42,838 bases of DNA, taken from Planctomycetaceae bacterium (lineage in GTDB: Bacteria; Planctomycetota; Planctomycetia; Planctomycetales; Planctomycetaceae). Positions 6,497-35,817 of this stretch are shown here, piece after piece (position 1 is the stretch's first letter; the number at the start of each line of letters is the position of its first letter). The notes beneath the pieces were generated by a model. The model made no database searches. It was not told the DNA's origin and was given only the letters and a program-made list of their open reading frames with translations. A program made the translations under genes and the position numbers. The DNA lies in contig JAGQPY010000001.1 of the NCBI GenBank assembly GCA_020426485.1, forward strand, positions 1 through 42,838. Reading direction: 5' to 3'.

Positions 6497-6694
6497 CCAT
6501 CAGGTCGGCAGGATCTCGCGCTTGTCATCATGAGCGGAGAGAGTCGCTGACTTTCGAAATCGGGTGATCCGAATCGGCGGCAACGCAGAACGGAATCATC
6601 AGACTGATATCAAAGAACAAGCCGCAGAGTCGTTCACTCGATTCGGCGGAAATACGAAGTGCAGACATCCGGACGATTCTGCCGTGCCTGTTTC

Positions 6695-6701
6695 AAGGAG
6701 G
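6695..6701 (+). promoter_or_regulatory. Strong Shine-Dalgarno fixing the secretin start
   Basis: AAGGAGG is followed eight bases later by GTG 6710. It overrides the longer in-frame GTG at 6659 and puts the hydrophobic export signal at residue 4. Confidence 0.8.
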
Positions 6702-6709
6702 ATGCCCAA

Positions 6710-9700
6710 GTGCAAAAGGCCATCGGATTCATCGCGTGCGTCTCGGTGATGGCCATGTCGCTGTACCTGTTCAGCGGCGGTGACCCATCTCGAATGCTGT
6801 CGGCCCAGACGGAAACGGAAGTACCGGACAGCTACGGTTCAGTGGCCCGGCGGTTCATGAATGACGCTCGCCAGCTGGCAAAGCAGGGAGACGTAAAGGG
6901 TGCTCGGCGTCTTGCCGAAACCGCCGCGTCGCTCTCCGCTGTCTGGAAGCCTGGTGAACAGACTCCGGAGCAGTTCCTGAAGGAGCTCGACGGCAACTCC
7001 GCCGAACAGCGGAATCCGTGGAGCCTCGGGGAAGCCGCTGACTGGCCATCTCTGACAGCCAATGCTGAATCGGATTCGAAGCAGGAAGACTTCGCATTCG
7101 AAGAGACTCCGGCCAGCAAAGACGTCCTCAACAAACGCAAGGCTCAAAAGCTGATGCAGGAGGCCCGCAAGGCTCTTGACGAAGGCGATATCGCCCTTGC
7201 GAGAACTCGTGTTATGCAGGCTCGGGGCATGAAAGTGTCCTGGGGACTGTGGGACGAACGTCCGGAACATCTGCTGGCCGAAATCGACCGAGCGGACGGA
7301 GCGACAACATTCTTCGCTGACGCCAAAGCAGGCACGGAAGCGTCAGTGTCCGGTGGCAGCCAAAACGCAGAACAGACTTATCAGCAGGCTCAATCCCTGA
7401 TTCAGCAGGCTCGCGCGGCCATCGACGCGGGCAGGTTTCAGCAGGCAGAATCCCTCGCTGCTCAGGCAGATTCGCTCAACGCAACGTATGGTCTGTTTGA
7501 AGACAGTCCTGCAATGATTCGTCGCGATCTGCAGAGACTGAGTCAGGCAGGTCAGGTTCCTGCGAATGCTTTTGTGAGTGCCACGGAAGCCGACGAACAG
7601 TCTCCGGAAACTCGCCAAGCGAAACAGCTGCTGGCCGAAGCCCGAACGGAATTTCGTCAGGGCAACGTGGCCTCAGCCAGAGAGAAGGCACTGAAGGCAC
7701 AGTCCCTGAGTGCCACTTATTCACTGCTGGAAGACACGCCGGAAAGACTGCTTTCCGAAATCGATTCCGCCGTCGCCGGCCAGGGACAGCAGAATCCGTT
7801 TGAGACACGAAATGAAAATCCGTTCGGACAGCTGAATGCCGGGTTCGCTCAGTCGACTCACTCCGGGCCGATTGATATGACACCGAACCGAACCACTCCG
7901 TCGCCCAAAAAGGACGTGAACGGTTTCACCGGTTTCGACAATCTGCCCGCTCGTGATGGCGTGGCTGTCGTCAATCCGGAAGGCGTTTCCGCTGAAGCAT
8001 CACTTCAATCAGGGATCGCACTGCTGGAACAGGGAGACCGTCAGGGAGCCCTGCGAGCTCTGACCTTGGCATGGCAGCACGCCGGACAGCTTGACGCAGG
8101 CCGACGAGAAACACTGCACGTACTGCTGGAACAGGTGGAAGGCAATCAGAATGAGATTGCACTGACGTCCGGTTCTTCCAACACACGCGTGGCCTTCGAT
8201 GAAAGACGTGGCGATCCCATGGATCCCATGACCGAATCGGACCCCCTCCGGAAAGCTGCCAACGAACTGGAAGTACGAATCACTCGCCTGCGGACGGAAG
8301 TTCTCAACTCCGTCTTCCGAGCCGAGAAGGTGAAGGAACAAAACCCCGAAGAAGCTCTGCAGATACTGGATCGAACTCTGGCGACGGTCGAAGCGGCTGA
8401 TCTGCCGGAAGAATCAGCAAAGGTTCTGGCCGGACACCTGCAGCGAACTCAGAAAAGCATTCAGACTTACATGGAGCAGCGAGCACCGATTCTGGCCAAT
8501 GAAGAACGGAATCGAAATGTTCGCGAACGGATTCAGAATGAAATCGAAAACCAGATTCGCATCGAACAGGAATTCGCTGACCTGACTCAGCAGTTCAACG
8601 ACCTGATGAGACAGCGACGCTACGCCGAAGCGGAACTGATTGCGAACAAGGCCAAGGACCTGAATCCGAATCTGCCGCAGGCCGTCATCATGGTGGAAAA
8701 GGCCAAGCTGCAGCGACAAATCAACTTCATCGAAGAAGTGAAAACCAACAAAGCAGACAATGCTTTGCAGATGCTGAATGAAGTTGACATCGCATTCGGT
8801 AATCCCATCGGTGACTACGTTCTTCCGGATGCCAAGTCATGGGCCGACATGTCCAGTCGTCGAGCCCGCTTTGGTTCGGCCGACGCCAGAACTCGTACCG
8901 AAAGCGAACTTCGCATCGAGAAGAGTCTGGGAGAAACCATCTCTCTGCACTTCCACGACGTTCCCCTGACAGACATCATCCGACACATCGCTACCACGCA
9001 CGGAATCAACATTACGCTTGATACACGTGCGATGGAAACCGAAGGGCTGATGCCAAATCAGGTGGTCAGCATCGACGTTGATGGAATCACGCTGCGAAGT
9101 GCACTGAACCTGTTGCTGGATCAGGCCGGGGGACTGGTTTATGACATCGAAAACGAAGTGTTGAAAATCACCAACCGTCTGGAACAGGACACAACCTTCA
9201 AGACTCGAGCCTACAACGTGGCCGACCTGGTTGTTCCGCTGGGACAGACGTCGGCAGCAAATCCATACAACTCGTCTGCACTCACAGGAGCGACGGCTTA
9301 CGGAAACGGATTGTTCCAGATCGATGACGACCTGACCGTCGGCATCGGTGGAAACGGCATGCCTCGAACGGCCGGCGGAATGAATACACCACAGGCTCGT
9401 GGTGTTGACTTCTCCGGACTTGTAGACCTGATTACCACAACGGTGGAACCGGGAACGTGGGATCTGGATGGTGGTGCCGGACGTCTGGAGGGCAACGAAA
9501 ACACGTTGAGTCTTGTTATTCGCCAGACTCCTGCCGTTCACGATCAGATTGTTGACCTGCTGGGACAGCTTCGAAAGCTGCAGGACCTTCAGGTAACCGT
9601 CGAAGTTCGCTTCATCAGCGTAACAGACCGCTTCTTCGAACGAATCGGTGTGGACTTTGACTTCAACGTTCAGGATACACTGGGCGATCCACCGGGTGTC

Positions 9701-10840
9701 CCGGCATTCGGTTCACGCCAGCTGACCTTCCCCGGAGCAACCGGTGGTGGCAACAACAACAATTCCGGCCTTCGCGGTGGAAACCAACAGGGCAACAATC
9801 AGAATCAGCAGGGAGCCGCGCAGGGACTGTTTGACTCCGTTCCTCGTGTCAACTCACCAAGAGATGATTTCAGTTCAACTGTTGTCGGTCTGGCCAGTCC
9901 GGATTCGTTCACTCAGGACTATGACATTCAGTTCCGACAGGGTTCCTTCGAACTGGGTGTCCCTGACTTCGGCAACTTCAATCCTGATGCCGGTATTCAG
10001 GTGGGAATGGCCATCCTGAGCGATCTGGAAGCCTTCTTCTTTATTCAGGCGGCTCAGGCCGATGAGCGAGCCAACATTCTGTTTGCACCAAAGGTGACGC
10101 TCTTCAACGGTCAGCTGGCGACCATCTCTGACGTGACAACACGACCATTTGTCATCGGGCTGCTGCCTGTCGTGGGTACCGGAGCCGTCGGCTTCCAACC
10201 TATCATTCAGCCGCTGACAGACGGCATTGTGCTGACAGTCGTGGCCGTGATTTCCGCAGACCGACGTTTTGTTCGTCTCTCTCTGTCTCCACAGTTCAAC
10301 AACGTGGTTGACGTCTTCACCTTCTCCTTCGCCAGTGGCGGTGCCGGTGGCGGTGCCATCGGCGGTGGCTTCGGTCAGGGCGGCGGTGGCGGCGGCTTCG
10401 GCGGTGGTGGAGGCGGCTTCGGCGGCGGCGGCTTCGGTGGAGGCGGCGGTGGTCTTGGCTTTGGAGGTATCGGCGGTGCCGGTGGTGGCTTCGGTGGTGG
10501 AGGCGGTGGTATCGGTGGCGGTCAAAACCAGCAGGGACAAGGTGGTGCAGCTGGTGGAACACTCACCGTCCAGCAGCCGGTTCAGGAAAGTATCAACGTT
10601 TCCACAACGGTCAGTGTCCCCGATGGCGGTACCGTCCTGCTCGGAGGCATCAAACGCCTGCGAGAAGGCCGCAACATGGCGGGAGTCCCGATTCTGAACA
10701 AGATTCCTTACATCAGCCGACTGTTCAAGAACAGCGGTGTCGGTCGAGAAACGGAAAGTGTGATGCTGATGGTGACTCCGCGTATCATCATCCACGAAGA
10801 GGAGGAGGAGTTGATCCTCGGAAATTCTGGTCCAAACTAA
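6710..10840 (+). CDS. Giant secretin (type II/IV pilus GspD/PilQ superfamily) with N-terminal helical repeats
   Basis: 1,376 residues from GTG 6710. Residues 4-22 form an export signal or anchor. Four copies of a ~50-residue helical unit follow (about 40-97, 142-193, 221-277, 300-352), each with a pattern like 'A...l..Gd...Ar..a..a.sl...w...e..Pe..L.eid'. A TPR-like stretch is near 430-480 and a charged coiled-coil-like region near 515-690. An STN/secretin N0-type domain (ISLHFHDVPLTDIIRHIA) lies at about 739-822. The secretin core runs from about 1093 to the end, closing with VPDGGTVLLGGIKR and the GVPILNKIPYISRLF signature. A ~75-residue Gly-rich insert (about 1207-1280) sits inside the core. 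The family forms multimeric outer-membrane channels. Classical secretins are 400-750 residues, so the N-terminal half is a large addition. No other secretion genes are adjacent. Confidence 0.93.
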   Translation: MQKAIGFIACVSVMAMSLYLFSGGDPSRMLSAQTETEVPDSYGSVARRFMNDARQLAKQGDVKGARRLAETAASLSAVWKPGEQTPEQFLKELDGNSAEQRNPWSLGEAADWPSLTANAESDSKQEDFAFEETPASKDVLNKRKAQKLMQEARKALDEGDIALARTRVMQARGMKVSWGLWDERPEHLLAEIDRADGATTFFADAKAGTEASVSGGSQNAEQTYQQAQSLIQQARAAIDAGRFQQAESLAAQADSLNATYGLFEDSPAMIRRDLQRLSQAGQVPANAFVSATEADEQSPETRQAKQLLAEARTEFRQGNVASAREKALKAQSLSATYSLLEDTPERLLSEIDSAVAGQGQQNPFETRNENPFGQLNAGFAQSTHSGPIDMTPNRTTPSPKKDVNGFTGFDNLPARDGVAVVNPEGVSAEASLQSGIALLEQGDRQGALRALTLAWQHAGQLDAGRRETLHVLLEQVEGNQNEIALTSGSSNTRVAFDERRGDPMDPMTESDPLRKAANELEVRITRLRTEVLNSVFRAEKVKEQNPEEALQILDRTLATVEAADLPEESAKVLAGHLQRTQKSIQTYMEQRAPILANEERNRNVRERIQNEIENQIRIEQEFADLTQQFNDLMRQRRYAEAELIANKAKDLNPNLPQAVIMVEKAKLQRQINFIEEVKTNKADNALQMLNEVDIAFGNPIGDYVLPDAKSWADMSSRRARFGSADARTRTESELRIEKSLGETISLHFHDVPLTDIIRHIATTHGINITLDTRAMETEGLMPNQVVSIDVDGITLRSALNLLLDQAGGLVYDIENEVLKITNRLEQDTTFKTRAYNVADLVVPLGQTSAANPYNSSALTGATAYGNGLFQIDDDLTVGIGGNGMPRTAGGMNTPQARGVDFSGLVDLITTTVEPGTWDLDGGAGRLEGNENTLSLVIRQTPAVHDQIVDLLGQLRKLQDLQVTVEVRFISVTDRFFERIGVDFDFNVQDTLGDPPGVPAFGSRQLTFPGATGGGNNNNSGLRGGNQQGNNQNQQGAAQGLFDSVPRVNSPRDDFSSTVVGLASPDSFTQDYDIQFRQGSFELGVPDFGNFNPDAGIQVGMAILSDLEAFFFIQAAQADERANILFAPKVTLFNGQLATISDVTTRPFVIGLLPVVGTGAVGFQPIIQPLTDGIVLTVVAVISADRRFVRLSLSPQFNNVVDVFTFSFASGGAGGGAIGGGFGQGGGGGGFGGGGGGFGGGGFGGGGGGLGFGGIGGAGGGFGGGGGGIGGGQNQQGQGGAAGGTLTVQQPVQESINVSTTVSVPDGGTVLLGGIKRLREGRNMAGVPILNKIPYISRLFKNSGVGRETESVMLMVTPRIIIHEEEEELILGNSGPN

Positions 10841-16375: not shown

Positions 16376-17929
16376 TTACTCAGCTAATGGTGCGGCTGTC
16401 TGAGAATACATGCCAGAGGTCGTGGCATCGAGAAGCCCGACGGCGTTCCAGGGCTGAATCATCGCTTTCAGTTCGGATTCGAACGCCGAAGCACCACTTT
16501 CCTGACGAACCTCACCTCGCCGAATCAAATCGGAATACCATCCCAGTCGCTCCCGCGCGCGGCTGACTGTTTCTCGAAAGTCTCGATCGTCAGCCTTCAG
16601 AAACGACGTCCAGCCATTGGTCTGAATTCGTTCAGCAGATGTTGCGGCGGCAAAATAAACCATGCACCAGGCGCACCAGAGTCGGAAGACCGGAAGCGAC
16701 GCGTAACACCCTTCCACCAATGCGTCAACAAGTCGCAACTCGTCTATGAGCGTTTCGGAATAACGGTACAGCTGAGACCGCCTCGTAACATCAGACGCTG
16801 AATCCAACAGCACTCCCGCAAGTCGTTCAATCCCCATCAGTGTGTGAGCAATTCCGGTGCTGTGCAGAGGATCAATGAATCCGGCGGTATTAGGCAGAGC
16901 AGCCCAGTCATCTCCTGCCGCTTTCGTCGTCAGTCGTTGAAGTCGTCCCGAAAACCGCAGACCCGTCGACGGTCGAATCACTTTGGACTCCTGAAACTGC
17001 GAGCGAACAAAGGAACTCTGTTGCAGATACTTCCGCCAGAGTCCTTCCGGTGGCATTGGATTGAAATCTGTCTGTCGCTGGTCCATGACGAACCCCGCAC
17101 TCACAGAATCATCATCGAAGCGCAGCTGCCACATCCACCCAGCATCCAGTACATGGTGTACCGCCGCCGCATCACACAAAAATGGGTGTCGCGAACGACA
17201 AACATTCATCTCATCAAGAACCTCTGCCACCGTCCTCACGTCAGAAAAATGTGCATAGACCGCTGACGAATGTGTTCGCAGCGTATCGGTCTGATCCGGA
17301 ATCCCGAGAAATTCCGGCAGCACCCGGGAAGCCCCCGAAGCGTCGACAGCAAAGTCTGATTCAACGCAGAAGTCACCGGTACCGGAACTCCCGCTGAAAT
17401 TCCAACCCGGATTCTGGTGGCAAATCGAATAACGTGCCTGCTCAATCTGCTGAACGCCATATCCTGCGGACAGTCCGAACAGGAGCTGGTCCACATCACT
17501 TCGCAGCCAGTGTGTGTCCGCAACAAGATCATTGGCGCTCGCGGCAACCAGCAACTGCCCGTCGCCGATTGGTGTCAATGAATCCTCGGTGACCGAGACA
17601 CCGGATGTCGCCCCGAGCCCCAGCGTTGACCGCGTTGTCTGATCAAAATAACTGAACCCGCGTTTCAGACCGCAGACAACATCCGGATAACCCTGACACC
17701 ACGCGCCGTAAGAACACAGCGGACGGAGTTCAGGAATCTCATAACGATCCGCCAGTCGGCGCAGAGTCTGATCAGCCAGTGGCGTGGAAGATTCGCCGAT
17801 CGCAAACCGAGGATGAGTGGCTCGGTCGATCACGGCAACGGAACGTCCGGATCGCGCAAGAATTAAGCTGAGCAGACTGCCTCCAAAACCGGAACCCAGA
17901 ATGACGACATCAACCCGTCGCTGGTTCAC
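16376..17929 (-). CDS. Flavin-dependent halogenase-like FAD oxidoreductase
   Basis: 517 residues from GTG 17929, with GGAG eight bases upstream. An N-terminal Rossmann FAD site, VVILGSGFGGSLL (GxGxxG at 12-17), is followed by IDRATHPRFAIGESSTP, matching the 'IGE(A/S)T.P' segment of tryptophan-halogenase-type flavoproteins. Lys89 in GLKRGFSYF sits where these enzymes carry their catalytic lysine (Lys79 in PrnA). The WxWxIP signature is altered: GWMWQLRF near 263-268. A late FAD-binding segment reads GFIDPLHSTGIAHTL. The enzyme could halogenate, hydroxylate or dehydrogenate a substrate; the altered WxWxIP leaves halogenation open. It is the last gene of a run with an Asn-synthetase-like ligase and a radical SAM enzyme. 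Confidence 0.82.
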   Translation of the reverse strand: MNQRRVDVVILGSGFGGSLLSLILARSGRSVAVIDRATHPRFAIGESSTPLADQTLRRLADRYEIPELRPLCSYGAWCQGYPDVVCGLKRGFSYFDQTTRSTLGLGATSGVSVTEDSLTPIGDGQLLVAASANDLVADTHWLRSDVDQLLFGLSAGYGVQQIEQARYSICHQNPGWNFSGSSGTGDFCVESDFAVDASGASRVLPEFLGIPDQTDTLRTHSSAVYAHFSDVRTVAEVLDEMNVCRSRHPFLCDAAAVHHVLDAGWMWQLRFDDDSVSAGFVMDQRQTDFNPMPPEGLWRKYLQQSSFVRSQFQESKVIRPSTGLRFSGRLQRLTTKAAGDDWAALPNTAGFIDPLHSTGIAHTLMGIERLAGVLLDSASDVTRRSQLYRYSETLIDELRLVDALVEGCYASLPVFRLWCAWCMVYFAAATSAERIQTNGWTSFLKADDRDFRETVSRARERLGWYSDLIRRGEVRQESGASAFESELKAMIQPWNAVGLLDATTSGMYSQTAAPLAE

Positions 17930-18027
17930 CGATGATTCTCCGTTCGTTCACGACATGGAAGGCAACATGCACCAGACATGATTTCAGACTCTTCCGCTAT
18001 CAGGAGCGAAGCAGTAAACCAGGGCAC
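17926..18027 (-). CDS. Possible small ORF between radical SAM and flavoprotein genes
   Basis: The frame directly after the radical SAM stop codon (TAG) stays open for 36 codons and ends in a TGA that overlaps the flavoprotein GTG as GTGA. From GTG 18027 it encodes 33 residues with a hydrophobic start (PWFTASLLIA) and a CCLPC cluster; from ATG 17979 it encodes 17. SD support is weak. It could be a translational-coupling leader, a precursor peptide, or chance. It is listed because of the stop/start overlap and the cluster context; confidence is low. Confidence 0.22.
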   Translation of the reverse strand: MPWFTASLLIAEESEIMSGACCLPCRERTENHR

Positions 18028-18039
18028 TTCCGACGACGA

Positions 18040-18996
18040 CTAACCGCAGACCGGGCACGTCACTTGCCTCGATACCCTCTGAGTCAGATTGGTCTGTTCC
18101 AGTCGCCGAATCCGCTTGTCCACACACGCGGCACACGTTGAAAACTGAGCCAAATCCCACAGGTCTGCGAAGACACGGCCTCGATGCAGGGCCAGCGTTT
18201 CGTCAACGACGGTTTCCAGTGAACTGAGTTTCGGAGGAGAAAATCGGCCAGTGACCTGAAGATGGTCCATGATACCATTCCCCGCTCGAACCGGAATGAC
18301 GACGCAGCACTGAACCCCGCAGTCGAATGCAAACCTAACAGATTCAATGGCACGTTCAATGCCCTGTTGCTCGGTGGTCTGTGGGGGACGAAGCAGAATG
18401 AAAGCCCGAAGGTCGATTGACTCCTGCAGCAGTTCTTCGCACGCTCGAGCAAAGTCTGCAGTTGTCATTTGCTTATTGAGCAACTGCAGAGTCTCAGCGT
18501 GTGACGTCTCCAGCCCCATGGCAACTTCCAGCTGCGTTCCGACGAGCTGCTGGAACTTCGCGCAGTGGATTCCAGTCAACTTTGGGTGACATTCGACGAT
18601 GACTCGCTGAAAGTGGGCAACTTGCGCTGCAATTCTCGGGAAGTCTTCTGAAGGAATCGCCTGACGGTCGAAAAAGTTACCGCTGTTATACAACTTGATC
18701 TGATCGCCCGGCGGAAGCTCGGCCAAAGCAAACCGGATTTGCTCCGGGATTGCCCCGGAGGGGACACGACTGGTCGTCGTATTCTTCCACAGGTCGCACA
18801 TCAAACATCGGAACGGGCATTCCCGGTTTGAAAGCAGTATGGTTGTCGTTTGCAGGACGGCCCCATCCGCCGCACGCTCCGGCTCAACGAAAAAGCCGTA
18901 CGGGCGAAAAGGATCAACCTCATTTCGTCGCCCACGAAAACCCAGCACATCCGAATCAGTCAACACAACATCAGCGTCCTGCGACAGAAAATGCAC
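18040..18996 (-). CDS. Radical SAM protein related to the RaSEA/TIGR01210 type
   Basis: 318 residues if GTG 18996 is used (26-base overlap with the upstream gene); GTG 18966, just after the upstream stop, is an alternative. The [4Fe-4S]-binding motif is CPFRCLMC (Cys60, 64, 67). The downstream segment KLYNSGNFFDRQAIP strongly recalls the 'SGSF.D..E.P' stretch of the archaeosine synthase radical SAM subunit and its bacterial relatives. VAMGLETSH is the usual later radical SAM strand. The C-terminus carries two CxxC pairs (288/291 and 314/317), the last just before the stop, suggesting a zinc ribbon or a second cluster. Radical chemistry on a nucleobase- or amino-acid-derived substrate is plausible; the actual reaction is unknown. 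Confidence 0.85.
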   Translation of the reverse strand: MHFLSQDADVVLTDSDVLGFRGRRNEVDPFRPYGFFVEPERAADGAVLQTTTILLSNRECPFRCLMCDLWKNTTTSRVPSGAIPEQIRFALAELPPGDQIKLYNSGNFFDRQAIPSEDFPRIAAQVAHFQRVIVECHPKLTGIHCAKFQQLVGTQLEVAMGLETSHAETLQLLNKQMTTADFARACEELLQESIDLRAFILLRPPQTTEQQGIERAIESVRFAFDCGVQCCVVIPVRAGNGIMDHLQVTGRFSPPKLSSLETVVDETLALHRGRVFADLWDLAQFSTCAACVDKRIRRLEQTNLTQRVSRQVTCPVCG

Positions 18997-20311
18997 TCCT
19001 CAGAACGTCGCGATAGGATTCCTCGTCCTTGGGGAACAACGATTCAAATACCGAGTCGACGGTCGCTCCGTGCTGAAAACGACGCTTTTCAAAAACGGGC
19101 ATCTTCAGACCAGTCACCTGTTCGACTCCGCGCCGAACGATTTCGCCTTTCAGTGAGTAGAGCTTCTCATTGTCCCAGCTCGTCAGATCAACAAACGGAA
19201 TGCCCTCGGAAACCTCGATCACGTTCGGTAAGGCAAACGGGCTGAACCCCCGAAAGCCGAAGTGTCGTGCCGGTGCCCAGCTTCGAACATGGCCTCGACT
19301 TTGCCCACCTGAATACGTCAGCGAATGTTTGACGGCGTTAATTCCCCACCCTTCGTGGTACAACATCAGATTGTTCAATACGCTGCGAATCGTCAGTTCG
19401 CTGTTCTCCTCGATCGGATAATCCTTCAGATTTTCATCGCCACCATCACCATCCAGCAGATAAACCCAGTCAGGATATCGAGCCCTGATCTCTCGACACA
19501 GAGCCAGCCCCATGGCCGCAGCCTGAACGTCCAGCGGTTTGTAATCCTCCATGACTCGAACGGCCTCGCGGTAGTCGATTTCTGATGCGGAAACGTCAAC
19601 AACTTCCAGAAACAGGCTCAGTCCCAGCTCCCGGAGGAACTGATGAGCCTGTTCTGCATCGCGGCCGTGGTCGTCAATTGACAGCGTGAATGCCTTCAGG
19701 CGAGCAGGTGATTCGCCGCGTTTCAACAAACAGTCATATGCGGCACAGAACACCGCTCCGCTGTCGACACCACCGCTGAACAGCACCCCCAAAGGTGCGT
19801 CGGAAGGAGTCTGATCCAGCCACTTCGCAATCTCAGTTTCCAGAGCAGCGATGTAGGCATAGCCGATTTCGTCCAGACTCGTCGACAATCGATTTCGCTC
19901 CGGAGTAAAGTATCGAGTGTACGTTGGATTGGGATCCGGACATCCCAGCAGAGCGATTTCGACGATGTGATGAGCCGGCACCATTCGGGTATACGACGGG
20001 TGGAACTGTGCATCGAGCCCTTCATGTTTCAACCAGTCAAGAATCTGATCCATGCGTTCAGCCACAATCAGACACGGGCCGTCAACCTGCTTCGCAAGGA
20101 AATATCGCAGAGGACGACCGATCGACCTTGCCATACGGATGATGTTTCCATTGCGGTGAACAAGTGCAAACTGCCCATCGAGTGCCCGTACCCTCGCCGG
20201 ATCACCCGAACCAACACATTCAATGGCCTCTTCGACAGTCGCGTTGAACAGAAAGTTGGCTTCGCTGTCCAGAAGGTTGACGAACCGTTCAACATATTGA
20301 TGTGAGTGCAT
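18971..20311 (-). CDS. Asparagine-synthetase-like ATP-dependent ligase lacking the glutaminase Cys
   Basis: 446 residues from ATG 20311, with GGAG seven bases upstream. Residues 1-120 look like a degenerate class-II amidotransferase domain (DGQFALVHRNG, RSIGRPLRYFL), but the protein starts MHSHQ and lacks the Cys2 nucleophile, so it should not use glutamine directly. The synthetase domain has the PP-loop LFSGGVDSGAV (SGGVDS at 179-184), LDGDGGDEN (287-294) and a late FEKRRFQHG segment like the K-R-F-Q of AsnB. Cys-less relatives include beta-lactam synthetase, carbapenam synthetase and lasso-peptide cyclase, which adenylate a carboxylate and join it to an amine. AsnB is usually 500-650 residues. 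It sits 43 bases after the GlmM-type gene and overlaps the radical SAM gene. Confidence 0.88.
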   Translation of the reverse strand: MHSHQYVERFVNLLDSEANFLFNATVEEAIECVGSGDPARVRALDGQFALVHRNGNIIRMARSIGRPLRYFLAKQVDGPCLIVAERMDQILDWLKHEGLDAQFHPSYTRMVPAHHIVEIALLGCPDPNPTYTRYFTPERNRLSTSLDEIGYAYIAALETEIAKWLDQTPSDAPLGVLFSGGVDSGAVFCAAYDCLLKRGESPARLKAFTLSIDDHGRDAEQAHQFLRELGLSLFLEVVDVSASEIDYREAVRVMEDYKPLDVQAAAMGLALCREIRARYPDWVYLLDGDGGDENLKDYPIEENSELTIRSVLNNLMLYHEGWGINAVKHSLTYSGGQSRGHVRSWAPARHFGFRGFSPFALPNVIEVSEGIPFVDLTSWDNEKLYSLKGEIVRRGVEQVTGLKMPVFEKRRFQHGATVDSVFESLFPKDEESYRDVLRSAFSVAGR

Positions 20312-20354: not shown

Positions 20355-21704
20355 TCACTGGACGACTGAGCGAACAACATCCATGGCTCGACGACACAAC
20401 TGCTTTGCATCGTCTGTCTCAGGAGCTTCGGCAATAACGCGAAGAATGGGCTCCGTGTTACTTGCACGAACCTGTACCCATCGATCGGGCCAGTCCAACC
20501 GCAGACCGTCGCCATCCGTCGCTTTGGCATCCGAAAACATGTCTCGCAGAGCAACACAGGCGTCAGAAACGGCCTCCCGAGGACACTCCAGTTTGTCCTT
20601 CACAATGGTATAGAACGGAAGCTCATCAGCCCATTGCTCCAGCGAAGTACCACGTTTCACAAGCCCGTCAAGAACATAGGCCATTGACACAAGGCTGTCC
20701 CGCACATAGCCAACGCGCGGCTCAATGACCCCGCCGTTACCTTCGCCGCCCAGAACGGCCTGAACCGATCGCATCTTTGCACACACGTGAGCTTCACCCA
20801 CAAACGATCGATGAAAGTGGCAGCCATGTTTGGCAGCAATGTCGGCGGTCACGCGACTGGTGGAACCGTTCACAACGAAAGGACCTTTCCGCGTTGCCAG
20901 AACATGATCCGCCGCCAGCGCCAGAGTCAGTTCCTCGCCGATGTATCGCCCGGTGTTATCCACAACGGCAAGGCGATCCGCATCGGGATCCTGAGCGAAA
21001 CCTGCGTCTGCTTTGTTGACGACGACCGACTGACAGAGTTCTGTCAGATTCTTTTCCACTGGCTCCGGAATATGTTCGAATCGTCCATCCGGCTCACCTC
21101 CCAGAACAACGACGTCACACCCCAACTCTTTCAGAAGCCGGGGACCACATGTAGCACCACTGCCGTGATTGCAGTCAAGAACAACGCGAAACCGGCGCTT
21201 GCGAATGGCGTCCGTATCAACGAGTGACAGAACTCGCTCGATATGAGGGCCAGCCGGATCTTCGATCGGAGTAACACGCCCCAGACCGATCCAGTCTTTC
21301 CAGGCGGGATTCCGTTCCTCCAGAAGCTGCAGCAGTTGCTGACCGAGATCACGATTAAAAACGGAACCATCAGGAGCAAACGGTTTCAAACCATTCCACT
21401 CAATCGGATTGTGGCTGGCGGTAATCTGCAGCCCCCCGGCGGCTTCCAGATGTCTTACAAGCACGCCACAGGTTGGCGTCGTCGCAATGCCCGCATCCAG
21501 TACTTCACATCCCGTTGCCAGCAAACCCGAAACGACAGCGTGGTAAACCATTGGGCCAGTGCTCCGGCCGTCCCGAGCGACGACAACACGACCTCCGGCA
21601 AACATGGTCCCCAAAGCCGCTGCAAACTCAGCCGCGTACAGTGGGTCAAGACCATCGCCGATGATGCCTCTCAACCCGGAAATGCTCAGAATCCTTGTAC
21701 TCAC
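20355..21704 (-). CDS. glmM: Phosphoglucosamine mutase (GlmM-type phosphohexomutase)
   Basis: 449 residues from GTG 21704, with GGAG eight bases upstream. All four alpha-D-phosphohexomutase sites are present: the active serine loop TASHNPIEWNG (Ser97), the Mg-binding DPDADR (239-244), the sugar loop GEGNGG and the phosphate-binding RASNTEPILRV near the C-terminus. The N-terminal FGTxGxRG-type segment is ISGLRGIIG. GlmM interconverts glucosamine-6-phosphate and glucosamine-1-phosphate, supplying UDP-GlcNAc for peptidoglycan or LPS. A phosphomannomutase/phosphoglucomutase specificity cannot be excluded. It leads the tight run that continues into the Asn-synthetase-like gene, so it may be transcribed with it without sharing its pathway. 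Confidence 0.9.
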   Translation of the reverse strand: MSTRILSISGLRGIIGDGLDPLYAAEFAAALGTMFAGGRVVVARDGRSTGPMVYHAVVSGLLATGCEVLDAGIATTPTCGVLVRHLEAAGGLQITASHNPIEWNGLKPFAPDGSVFNRDLGQQLLQLLEERNPAWKDWIGLGRVTPIEDPAGPHIERVLSLVDTDAIRKRRFRVVLDCNHGSGATCGPRLLKELGCDVVVLGGEPDGRFEHIPEPVEKNLTELCQSVVVNKADAGFAQDPDADRLAVVDNTGRYIGEELTLALAADHVLATRKGPFVVNGSTSRVTADIAAKHGCHFHRSFVGEAHVCAKMRSVQAVLGGEGNGGVIEPRVGYVRDSLVSMAYVLDGLVKRGTSLEQWADELPFYTIVKDKLECPREAVSDACVALRDMFSDAKATDGDGLRLDWPDRWVQVRASNTEPILRVIAEAPETDDAKQLCRRAMDVVRSVVQ

Positions 21705-33623: not shown

Positions 33624-34143
33624 TCAGAATGTCATGTCACTCCACCTCGCCGCGAACCGGCAATTTGAGTAGATTTCGGGTAGAGACTGCCTGAAAAAGG
33701 GGACAGGCACCTTCCATATGGTGCATAAGCGGGCTGACAGCCACGACATCGAGGAGTCCGGTCGCCTTCTTCAGACAGCCTTGGCGGAGGACGTGAAGAT
33801 GTCATGGCCACAATGATTCTCGGTCGACTGCAACAGGTTTCAGAACAGTTTTCAGATTCCGAGGCCCGCACAAAGCCGGGACGGGCTCCCGAAACGGGGC
33901 ATCCACCCCGTGAAATGCCTGTCGGGAAGGATGCCTGCCGTGTTTTGGAAGCCGCTTGAGTGGCAAAAGTGGCCAGACTGAGTCTGCCGGAAAACATTCC
34001 CCCGGTACCGTTCGCCACCGCAGAAGAGCATTCGTCGCATCTCACGTGCCCCCCTGTATTGTGTGGCTGTGCCCATGTATGATTCCGCCGAGTATGTTTT
34101 CTTTACGACATAAATCGATGTCATTGAAGATGATGGAGTGCCA
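33624..34143. other. 520-base intergenic region with a REP-like motif
   Basis: It contains AAAAAGGGGACAGGCACC (33694-33711) followed by a short hairpin with GGTGC, and a frame-open GC-rich part to about 34040. Overlapping minus frames there have no family resemblance. The last 100 bases are the leader of the cytochrome fusion gene. Confidence 0.5.
33694..33716. repeat. GGGGACAGGCACC-type REP half-site (probable)
   Basis: The string AAAAAGGGGACAGGCACC matches, from memory, a widespread palindromic motif that accompanies REP-associated (RAYT/Y1) transposases in many bacteria, usually as GGTGCCTGTCCCC. Only one arm is complete here; GCACC..GGTGC forms a 5-bp hairpin. No transposase gene is nearby. 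Confidence 0.4.
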
Positions 34144-35817
34144 ATGCCCCGCCTGAACCGCCATGGAAATGCGTCCGGCCCGCTGTTAGTGATATTTGGC
34201 CTCGTTTGTCTCGGACTGCTGTTTTACCTGTCACTGAATCGAAACGAGAGTGCTCCTCAAACATCGAACAGTCCACAGGAGATCTCCGAAGTATCCGAAA
34301 CGACCTCCAGTCATGGTGATGTTCCGCCATCGGCGACATCTGTGATGCCTGATGTTGCCAATACTCCGGCGGCCTCCGCGAAGGGGCCGATATGGGAAAC
34401 GTGGGATAAACCGGTATTGGCTCTGATGCTGACTGGTGAGCAGCATGGCTATTTTGAACCGTGCGGCTGCACGTCCAACCAGCTCGGTGGAATGTCGCGC
34501 AGAGCTGACCTTTTTCAGAAACTCAAGGATGCCGGATGGGCGGTACGCGGCCTTGACGCCGGAGGCCTGGCACGCCGCAGTGTTCGACAGTCGCAGATTA
34601 AGTTCGAAACCACACTGACAGCTCTGCGTGATCTTAACTATGCCGCCATCGGACTCGGTCCGGAGGAGCTTCGCCTGCAACCGGATTTCCTTCTCAGTCA
34701 GCATCTGACGACCGGCGAGTCTCCACTCTTTTTTCTGTCAGCCAATCTGACCTTCTTCGGAACTCCGGAGCTCGGCACCCCCGTCCCCAGCGCTGTGTTC
34801 GAAGAAGGAGGACTGAAGATTGGCGTCACGAGCGTCATGTCGGAAGAAATGCAGAAGGAGGTTCTGCCGCACCCTGACGTCAATTGGAAAGAACCCTCCA
34901 GTGCCCTGGAGGCTGTTCTGGCTTCTTTCGACGAACAGAATGTCGATGTCCGAATTCTGCTTTGTCAGGGAAGAGTCGGTGAGGACTTTGAAAATGAAAC
35001 GCTTCAACTTGCCCGACAGTTCCCCCAGTTTCAGATTGTTCTTACCGCCAACGGAATCGGTGACCCGGATCCCAATGCAGCTCCCAGGAAGGTAGGTGAT
35101 ACCCTGATCATTGAATCGGGCAGAAAAGGGAAGTACGTCGGGGTGCTCGGGGTTTACAAGTCACAGAATGGCGAACCATCATTTCGATACAAGCTCGTTG
35201 CCCTCGAACGTGACGACTTTAACGACACGCCTTCCATGGTTGAATTAATGCAGGCCTACCAGACGCGGCTGAAAGATGAACAGATCGTTCTGGCAGATGC
35301 TGTGTCCGCCCCACATCCGTCGGGTTCGACGTTTGTTGGAGCGGATAAATGCGGCGAATGCCACAGCAAGGCCTTCGATGTCTGGAAAAATTCCGCCCAC
35401 GCTCATGCTCTGGAAAGTCTGGACCCATCGAATCAGCGTGAGGGATTCGAACGTCTCAATGGAGTGGTGCGGGAATACGATCCGGAATGCCTGGCGTGTC
35501 ACGTGAACGGCTGGGACCCGCAGGAATATATTCGTTTTCGTTCCGGATTTTTGAACGAAGAGTTTGCTTCGACACAGACGGAGAAGTCACTGCACACTCT
35601 GATGGCAGGCAACCAGTGTGAAAACTGCCATGGTCCGGGAAGCCGACACGTAGAGCTTATCGAAGCGGATAATGTGGAAGAAGCCAGGAAACTTGTTCGA
35701 GTCACGCTTGAACAGGCCAGGCAGGGGATGTGCGAAAAATGCCACGATTCTGACAACAGCCCGAAGTTTCAGTTTGATGAATACTGGGAATTGATCAAGC
35801 ACCCTGGACTGGACTGA
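34144..35817 (+). CDS. Metallophosphatase/5'-nucleotidase-like protein fused to a tetraheme cytochrome c domain
   Basis: 557 residues from ATG 34144, with GGAG five bases upstream. An N-terminal membrane anchor (LLVIFGLVCLGLLFYLSL) and a Ser/Thr-rich linker precede a ~270-residue region related to bacterial 5'-nucleotidase-like metallophosphatases. That region has the EPCGCTSNQLGGMSRRADL-type opening and AIGLGPEEL, although several metal ligands of the classical family are not obvious. The C-terminal ~170 residues carry four CxxCH heme motifs: CGECH (403), CLACH (449), CENCH (492) and CEKCH (530), resembling cytochrome c-554 domains. The protein should be periplasmic and heme-loaded. A redox role is likely; the substrate is unknown. 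The SMI1/KNR4-like gene starts 4 bases after the stop. Confidence 0.88.
   Translation: MPRLNRHGNASGPLLVIFGLVCLGLLFYLSLNRNESAPQTSNSPQEISEVSETTSSHGDVPPSATSVMPDVANTPAASAKGPIWETWDKPVLALMLTGEQHGYFEPCGCTSNQLGGMSRRADLFQKLKDAGWAVRGLDAGGLARRSVRQSQIKFETTLTALRDLNYAAIGLGPEELRLQPDFLLSQHLTTGESPLFFLSANLTFFGTPELGTPVPSAVFEEGGLKIGVTSVMSEEMQKEVLPHPDVNWKEPSSALEAVLASFDEQNVDVRILLCQGRVGEDFENETLQLARQFPQFQIVLTANGIGDPDPNAAPRKVGDTLIIESGRKGKYVGVLGVYKSQNGEPSFRYKLVALERDDFNDTPSMVELMQAYQTRLKDEQIVLADAVSAPHPSGSTFVGADKCGECHSKAFDVWKNSAHAHALESLDPSNQREGFERLNGVVREYDPECLACHVNGWDPQEYIRFRSGFLNEEFASTQTEKSLHTLMAGNQCENCHGPGSRHVELIEADNVEEARKLVRVTLEQARQGMCEKCHDSDNSPKFQFDEYWELIKHPGLD

Follow-up and report, generated by a model that had tools for sequence, protein, structure and literature searches.

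Three adjacent planctomycete genes, encoding a ligase, a radical SAM enzyme and a flavoprotein, form a conserved unit that is co-inherited across Planctomycetota, Bacteroidota and other bacteria. Since this trio is almost always accompanied by one large exported lipoprotein (the partner), it probably makes a cofactor for the lipoprotein or modifies it; the functional link between trio and partner is well supported, and the chemistry is inferred.

Results

Three intact genes in an operon

The trio occupies the minus strand of the 42,838-nucleotide stretch of planctomycete DNA that was analyzed (the window) and consists of a Cys-less Asn-synthetase-like ligase (446 aa, 18971..20311), a radical SAM enzyme of the RaSEA/Elp3 clan (318 aa, 18040..18996, GTG start) and an FAD-dependent flavoprotein with a halogenase/hydroxylase fold (517 aa, 16376..17929, GTG start). 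All three ORFs are intact. The ligase and radical SAM genes share 26 bases, and a gap of 110 bases lies between the radical SAM stop and the start of the flavoprotein gene. A first-pass annotation, made from the letters of the window alone, had described these three minus-strand genes with their overlap and 110-base gap, and its layout holds. The motifs that it listed (SGGVDS, absence of Cys2, CPFRCLMC, SGNFFD, GSGFGG, GESSTP and Lys89) are likewise present, and those that were counted are kept in orthologues. Conservation of the orthologues across genera excludes a chance origin of the trio.

A phosphoglucosamine mutase gene (20355-21704) lies 43 bases ahead of the ligase gene and adjoins the ligase only in related genomes; its product passes the archaeal-type model TIGR03990 (490 bits, cut-off 439) and fails the bacterial model. 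The genes glmM, plsC and HAD were considered as members of the unit and dropped, glmM adjoining the trio in a Fuerstiella-like clade only. Elsewhere in the window are a multiheme cytochrome gene (34138-35814, plus strand) matching Cytochrome_C554 and C7, and a gene for a very long protein of 1393 aa with a secretin domain (6659-10837), a homologue of which has the same relative place in genome G307 (locus L028).

The trio is inherited together

In an evenly drawn phylum-wide sample of 392 genomes, radical SAM orthologues (at least 39% identity) were found in 21 genomes besides that of the window, all from the same family or class. The ligase was present in every one of these 21 and in none of 18 radical-SAM-negative genomes of the same class (Fisher p=2e-11; this and the Fisher values below are not corrected for kinship among genomes, hence inflated, and are descriptive only), and the flavoprotein in 20 of the 21. 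Genus g3 (probably Gimesia) has its flavoprotein gene at a separate site, and the ligase and radical SAM genes are apart in three further genomes (G087, G216, G365); because the scattered genes still co-occur, the association does not depend on linkage. An aldehyde dehydrogenase (65-68% identical) adjoins the flavoprotein in the Gimesia-like g3 (L099-L107) and at L132:10203-11786, that is, in two lineages only.

A GTDB scan with the ligase yielded at least 551 confirmed stretches that encode relatives, the best 80 of which include Chitinophagaceae, Mucilaginibacter segetis, Rhodothermales and an Acidobacteria MAG. At 28 of these best 80 loci all three genes fall within 6 kb, almost invariably arranged as ligase, radical SAM, flavoprotein, an order seen again in Bacteroidota. 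A genome-wide search of a second ligase-positive set, unlinked cases included, recovered the radical SAM enzyme in 31/33 and the flavoprotein in 32/33 genomes. The trees of the three proteins from 48 genomes are largely congruent (r=0.75-0.78, where permutations reached at most 0.27). The earlier proposal that the three genes belong together is thus borne out beyond the strain, both in the phylum sample and in Bacteroidota. Among the neighbors screened, at minimum lengths of 50-90 aa and within the immediate surroundings, no fourth enzyme or small ORF was conserved beside the trio, and carrier-protein, NRPS or precursor genes were not seen.

Features of the three enzymes

Pfam assigns the ligase a single domain, Asn_synthase (56 bits), and its score lies far below the cut-off for glutamine-hydrolyzing asparagine synthase (TIGR01536; 47.9 bits, cut-off 267). 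Its orthologues in other genera are 62-78% identical to the window protein, and the PP-loop motif SGG[VI]DS is present in 53/53 of them. The N-terminal Ntn-type domain is truncated and lacks the Cys2 glutaminase nucleophile, the first 15 aligned residues being free of Cys in 52/53 orthologues. The structural model is weak overall (pLDDT 66) and confident in the PP-loop core; its best structural match is beta-lactam synthetase (1mc1; E=3e-11, TM about 0.5), followed by asparagine synthetase. The ligase is therefore a Cys-less enzyme with an SGGxDS PP-loop and a modeled Asn-synthetase fold, with the features of the beta-lactam synthetase-like enzymes, and amide formation, intramolecular in that group, is its predicted activity. 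It shares with beta-lactam synthetase, carbapenam synthetase and lasso cyclase the PP-loop ATPase core, the absence of Cys2 and the nearest fold, but differs from them in its truncated N-terminal domain, in an identity of about 18%, and in its company, which is a radical SAM enzyme and an FAD protein rather than a precursor peptide or beta-lactam genes.

In the radical SAM enzyme, whose orthologues across genera are 39-62% identical to it, the CxxxCxxC motif (CPFRCLMC in the window) is kept in 52/52 orthologues, and the window protein carries the segment KLYNSGNFFD. It scores 96.1 bits with the RaSEA model TIGR01210, below the cut-off of 212. Sequence searches of the PDB gave no match for this protein; its model is confident (pLDDT 93), with Elp3 as the closest structure. 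A second metal site formed by C-terminal Cys residues was considered and dropped, as these are missing from several orthologues. A RaSEA-like bacterial protein from another planctomycete family (genome G131, L049:9522-10556; also at L256) comes close to the TIGR01210 cut-off (195.6/212 bits) and occurs without the trio ligase.

The flavoprotein has orthologues of 37-55% identity across genera and carries the motifs GSGFGG and GESSTP, as well as K89 within a KRGF motif that is present in 48/49 orthologues. Its nearest characterized relatives, which are also the nearest sequence family with solved structures, are the halogenases PltM and tetracycline 7-halogenase (CtcP), whose substrates are small phenols and tetracyclines. 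K89 aligns with K87 of PltM, the catalytic Lys of flavin-dependent halogenases, which is essential in PltM since the Ala mutant is inactive (PMC6424973). The catalytic Lys is thus common to these enzymes and the trio flavoprotein, whereas the halogenase motif WxWxIP is replaced by WMWQLRF in the window protein and mostly by WxWxLR in orthologues, its Pro surviving in just 3 of the 46 orthologues for which a match to the motif was obtained; the gene company also differs. With this replacement, the protein may either hydroxylate or halogenate. The NCBIfam models of the maturases QhpG, GoxB and LodB gave 56, 42 and 34 bits, below their cut-offs of 240, 400 and 400, and the QhpG score rose to at most 84 bits with the Mucilaginibacter orthologue. 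All three trio enzymes accordingly fall far below the cut-off of the nearest named NCBIfam family.

A large exported lipoprotein accompanies the trio

The partner is an exported protein of about 1200 residues with TPR repeats, FG-GAP propeller repeats and a UnbV/ASPIC segment (CRTAC1-like), followed by a conserved C-terminal region of about 430 residues that has no Pfam match. Many N-termini carry a lipobox-type signal, so that the protein is usually a predicted lipoprotein. The Mucilaginibacter and planctomycete proteins are homologous over nearly their full length, at roughly 30-37% identity. Several lineages have the partner gene next to trio genes, in varied arrangements (L030, L143, L163, L178, L180, L181), and in four Chitinophagaceae genomes and Mucilaginibacter the ligase, radical SAM and flavoprotein genes are followed by a convergent partner gene. 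In the window genome it lies outside the window and unlinked to the trio (G000:C610:12446-16066), again with a lipobox-type N-terminus. There it is followed by an NHL/SMP-30-type propeller gene (L293:7770-12556), which adjoins the partner in 7 other loci. One Chitinophagaceae genome has two tandem partner copies (L308:8766-15942), and G432, G655 and G663 also have two copies.

A partner profile (A4) detected the protein in 24/24 trio-positive genomes against 5/18 trio-negative genomes of the same class. Scores above 790 bits were reached by all 22 trio genomes of the phylum sample and by only three others (G024, G266, G361), in which the partner subfamily is present and the trio was undetected (same-class Fisher p=2e-8, descriptive); about 75 further genomes of the sample hold lower-scoring homologues. 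Chitinophagaceae provided an independent and stronger test: among 296 of their genomes, the ligase occurs in 10 and the partner in exactly those 10 plus G699 (Fisher p=9e-18, descriptive). In G699 the partner has the flavoprotein and radical SAM genes as neighbors, after which the contig ends inside the locus.

Three residues distinguish 27 trio-associated partners from 20 homologues encoded in trio-negative genomes: the Trp of a DxLW motif (100% vs 0%), that of an ELWE motif (96% vs 0%) and the Pro of a GWxxPTD motif (100% vs 0%). Both Trp residues are also present in 16/16 further Bacteroidota copies checked. The trio-negative genomes G024, G266 and G361 carry the same residues in their partners, and the residues may therefore be mere subfamily markers.

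Redox proteins and a transporter in some lineages

Next to the partner, some planctomycetes encode a 600-residue CRTAC1 protein and a c554-like pentaheme cytochrome in the membrane: both are at L300, L303 and L304 have members of the same families, and L030 combines them with the full trio and the partner. In Bacteroidota (L359-L362), genes in the vicinity of the partner encode a 600-residue CRTAC1 protein as well as an RnfD/NqrB-like membrane protein. A CRTAC1-type FG-GAP protein has also been reported beside hydrazine synthase homologues (PMC12758564), and together with the redox neighbors this suggests an extracytoplasmic redox role. An MFS gene adjoins the ligase in several Bacteroidota loci (L177, L180, L184, L357, L359-L362), and no conserved transporter was seen next to the planctomycete trios; the redox neighbors and the MFS gene are thus lineage-specific. 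The Chitinophagaceae loci L359-L362 also contain, in conserved order, genes for AhpD-like proteins, a kojibiose hydrolase, a trehalase and an IcmF-like N-terminal part. The carbohydrate genes among them (kojibiose hydrolase, trehalase) were considered as part of the unit and dropped as lineage-specific.

Discussion

We tentatively favor the view that the trio is a self-contained cytoplasmic pathway that supplies the exported lipoprotein with a small cofactor or ligand, probably a redox-active one. For its substrate, order of steps, export and redox role we propose that the ligase would adenylate a carboxylate and couple it to the amine of a free amino acid or of some other small acceptor, that the radical SAM enzyme would then cleave or rearrange the intermediate so made, and that the FAD protein would hydroxylate (or halogenate) an aromatic ring. 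The product may be exported, which fits the MFS gene beside many Bacteroidota ligase genes, and the lipoprotein would use it in an extracytoplasmic electron-transfer module, by a logic like that of PQQ and its propeller dehydrogenases. PQQ biosynthesis is a cytoplasmic radical-SAM pathway that serves exported beta-propeller dehydrogenases; it offers an analogy only, its enzymes being different and no PqqA-like peptide having been seen beside the trio. An unusual amide-containing small molecule, one of the products suggested in the first-pass annotation, could be what is made.

The main competitor of this cofactor pathway, which we judge rather unlikely, is that the trio matures the lipoprotein itself while it is still in the cytoplasm. 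It might, for instance, hydroxylate or cross-link one or both subfamily-specific Trp residues to create a redox cofactor derived from the protein. Sec export of a 1200-residue lipoprotein would be impeded by an intramolecular amide cross-link, which counts against this reading, as do the small phenol and tetracycline substrates of the flavoprotein's closest characterized relatives and the presence of the same Trp residues in three partners without the trio. In its favor are the near-complete restriction of the DxLW and ELWE Trp residues to trio-associated partners in our comparison, the sub-threshold similarity of the flavoprotein to QhpG, GoxB and LodB, the lack of a conserved precursor peptide or fourth enzyme, and the precedent of the radical SAM enzyme QhpD and the flavoprotein QhpG, which likewise modify a later-exported protein, QhpC, in the cytoplasm (PMC7876137). 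Tryptophylquinone maturation by QhpD/QhpG, LodB and GoxB resembles the trio in that an FAD protein, joined in the Qhp case by a radical SAM enzyme, serves a redox enzyme, but the trio adds an ATP-dependent ligase, its associated protein is a TPR/CRTAC1 lipoprotein, and its flavoprotein reaches only 56-84 of the 240 bits required by the QhpG model. Less likely than either the cofactor or the maturation reading, and improbable in our estimate, is a specialized metabolite (a signal, metallophore or antibiotic-like amide) with the lipoprotein as its receptor, carrier or self-protection protein. The MFS gene of Bacteroidota, the halogenase-like catalytic Lys and the ligase fold closest to beta-lactam synthetase would suit such a product, but the unusually high conservation of the ligase, the largely congruent gene trees and the absence of carrier-protein, NRPS and precursor genes nearby set the trio apart from typical variable biosynthetic clusters. 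The ammosamide pathway also pairs a flavin halogenase with a putative Asn-synthetase-type amidating enzyme, Amm20, but is a large variable cluster that uses a precursor peptide with PEARL enzymes and has no typical radical SAM enzyme (PMC12715798).

Two further products raised by the first-pass annotation are not supported. That the trio builds an archaeosine-related modified tRNA base is very hard to credit: the radical SAM enzyme does belong to the RaSEA/Elp3 clan and is structurally closest to Elp3, but it stays below the RaSEA cut-off, the trio is tightly associated with an exported protein, and a search for the preQ0 gene product QueC, detected in controls, did not detect it in five trio-positive Chitinophagaceae (G414, G539, G659, G439, G609). 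All planctomycetes tested have QueC, trio or no trio. Given the 96 vs 212 bits and the missing QueC, preQ0 or tRNA chemistry was dropped. The archaeal ArcS-RaSEA pathway, in which RaSEA works with ArcS on preQ0-Lys in tRNA, does resemble the trio in that a radical SAM enzyme of the same clan acts after an amino-acid-attaching enzyme; in the trio, this companion is an Asn-synthetase-like ligase, QueC is not required, an FAD protein is added, and an exported lipoprotein accompanies the set. A modified peptide finds no support either, since no small fourth gene is conserved beside the trio, whereas RiPP pathways (lasso peptide and others) have a precursor peptide gene near their enzymes, which was not found here among ORFs of at least 50-90 aa.

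The trio enzymes belong to known superfamilies, and their logic resembles that of known cofactor or maturation systems. The first-pass annotation knew of no described pathway with these three enzymes, and we matched none in the libraries searched or in the literature, of which our coverage is incomplete; a literature search for UnbU/UnbV in enediyne clusters also returned nothing. With relatives of the ligase encoded in at least 551 stretches, a pathway with one dedicated exported partner, present in many Planctomycetota and some Bacteroidota, appears to have escaped naming. With still more reserve than for the cofactor pathway as such, we consider that the trio might make a cofactor of a class not yet known, either free or derived from protein side chains, for an unrecognized family of extracytoplasmic redox lipoproteins in Planctomycetota, Bacteroidota and other phyla; if its product is such a new class, the system would be categorically new. 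The trio could thereby reveal a new redox cofactor, and it provides a testable handle on the function of the CRTAC1/UnbV-ASPIC propeller proteins, which are very abundant.
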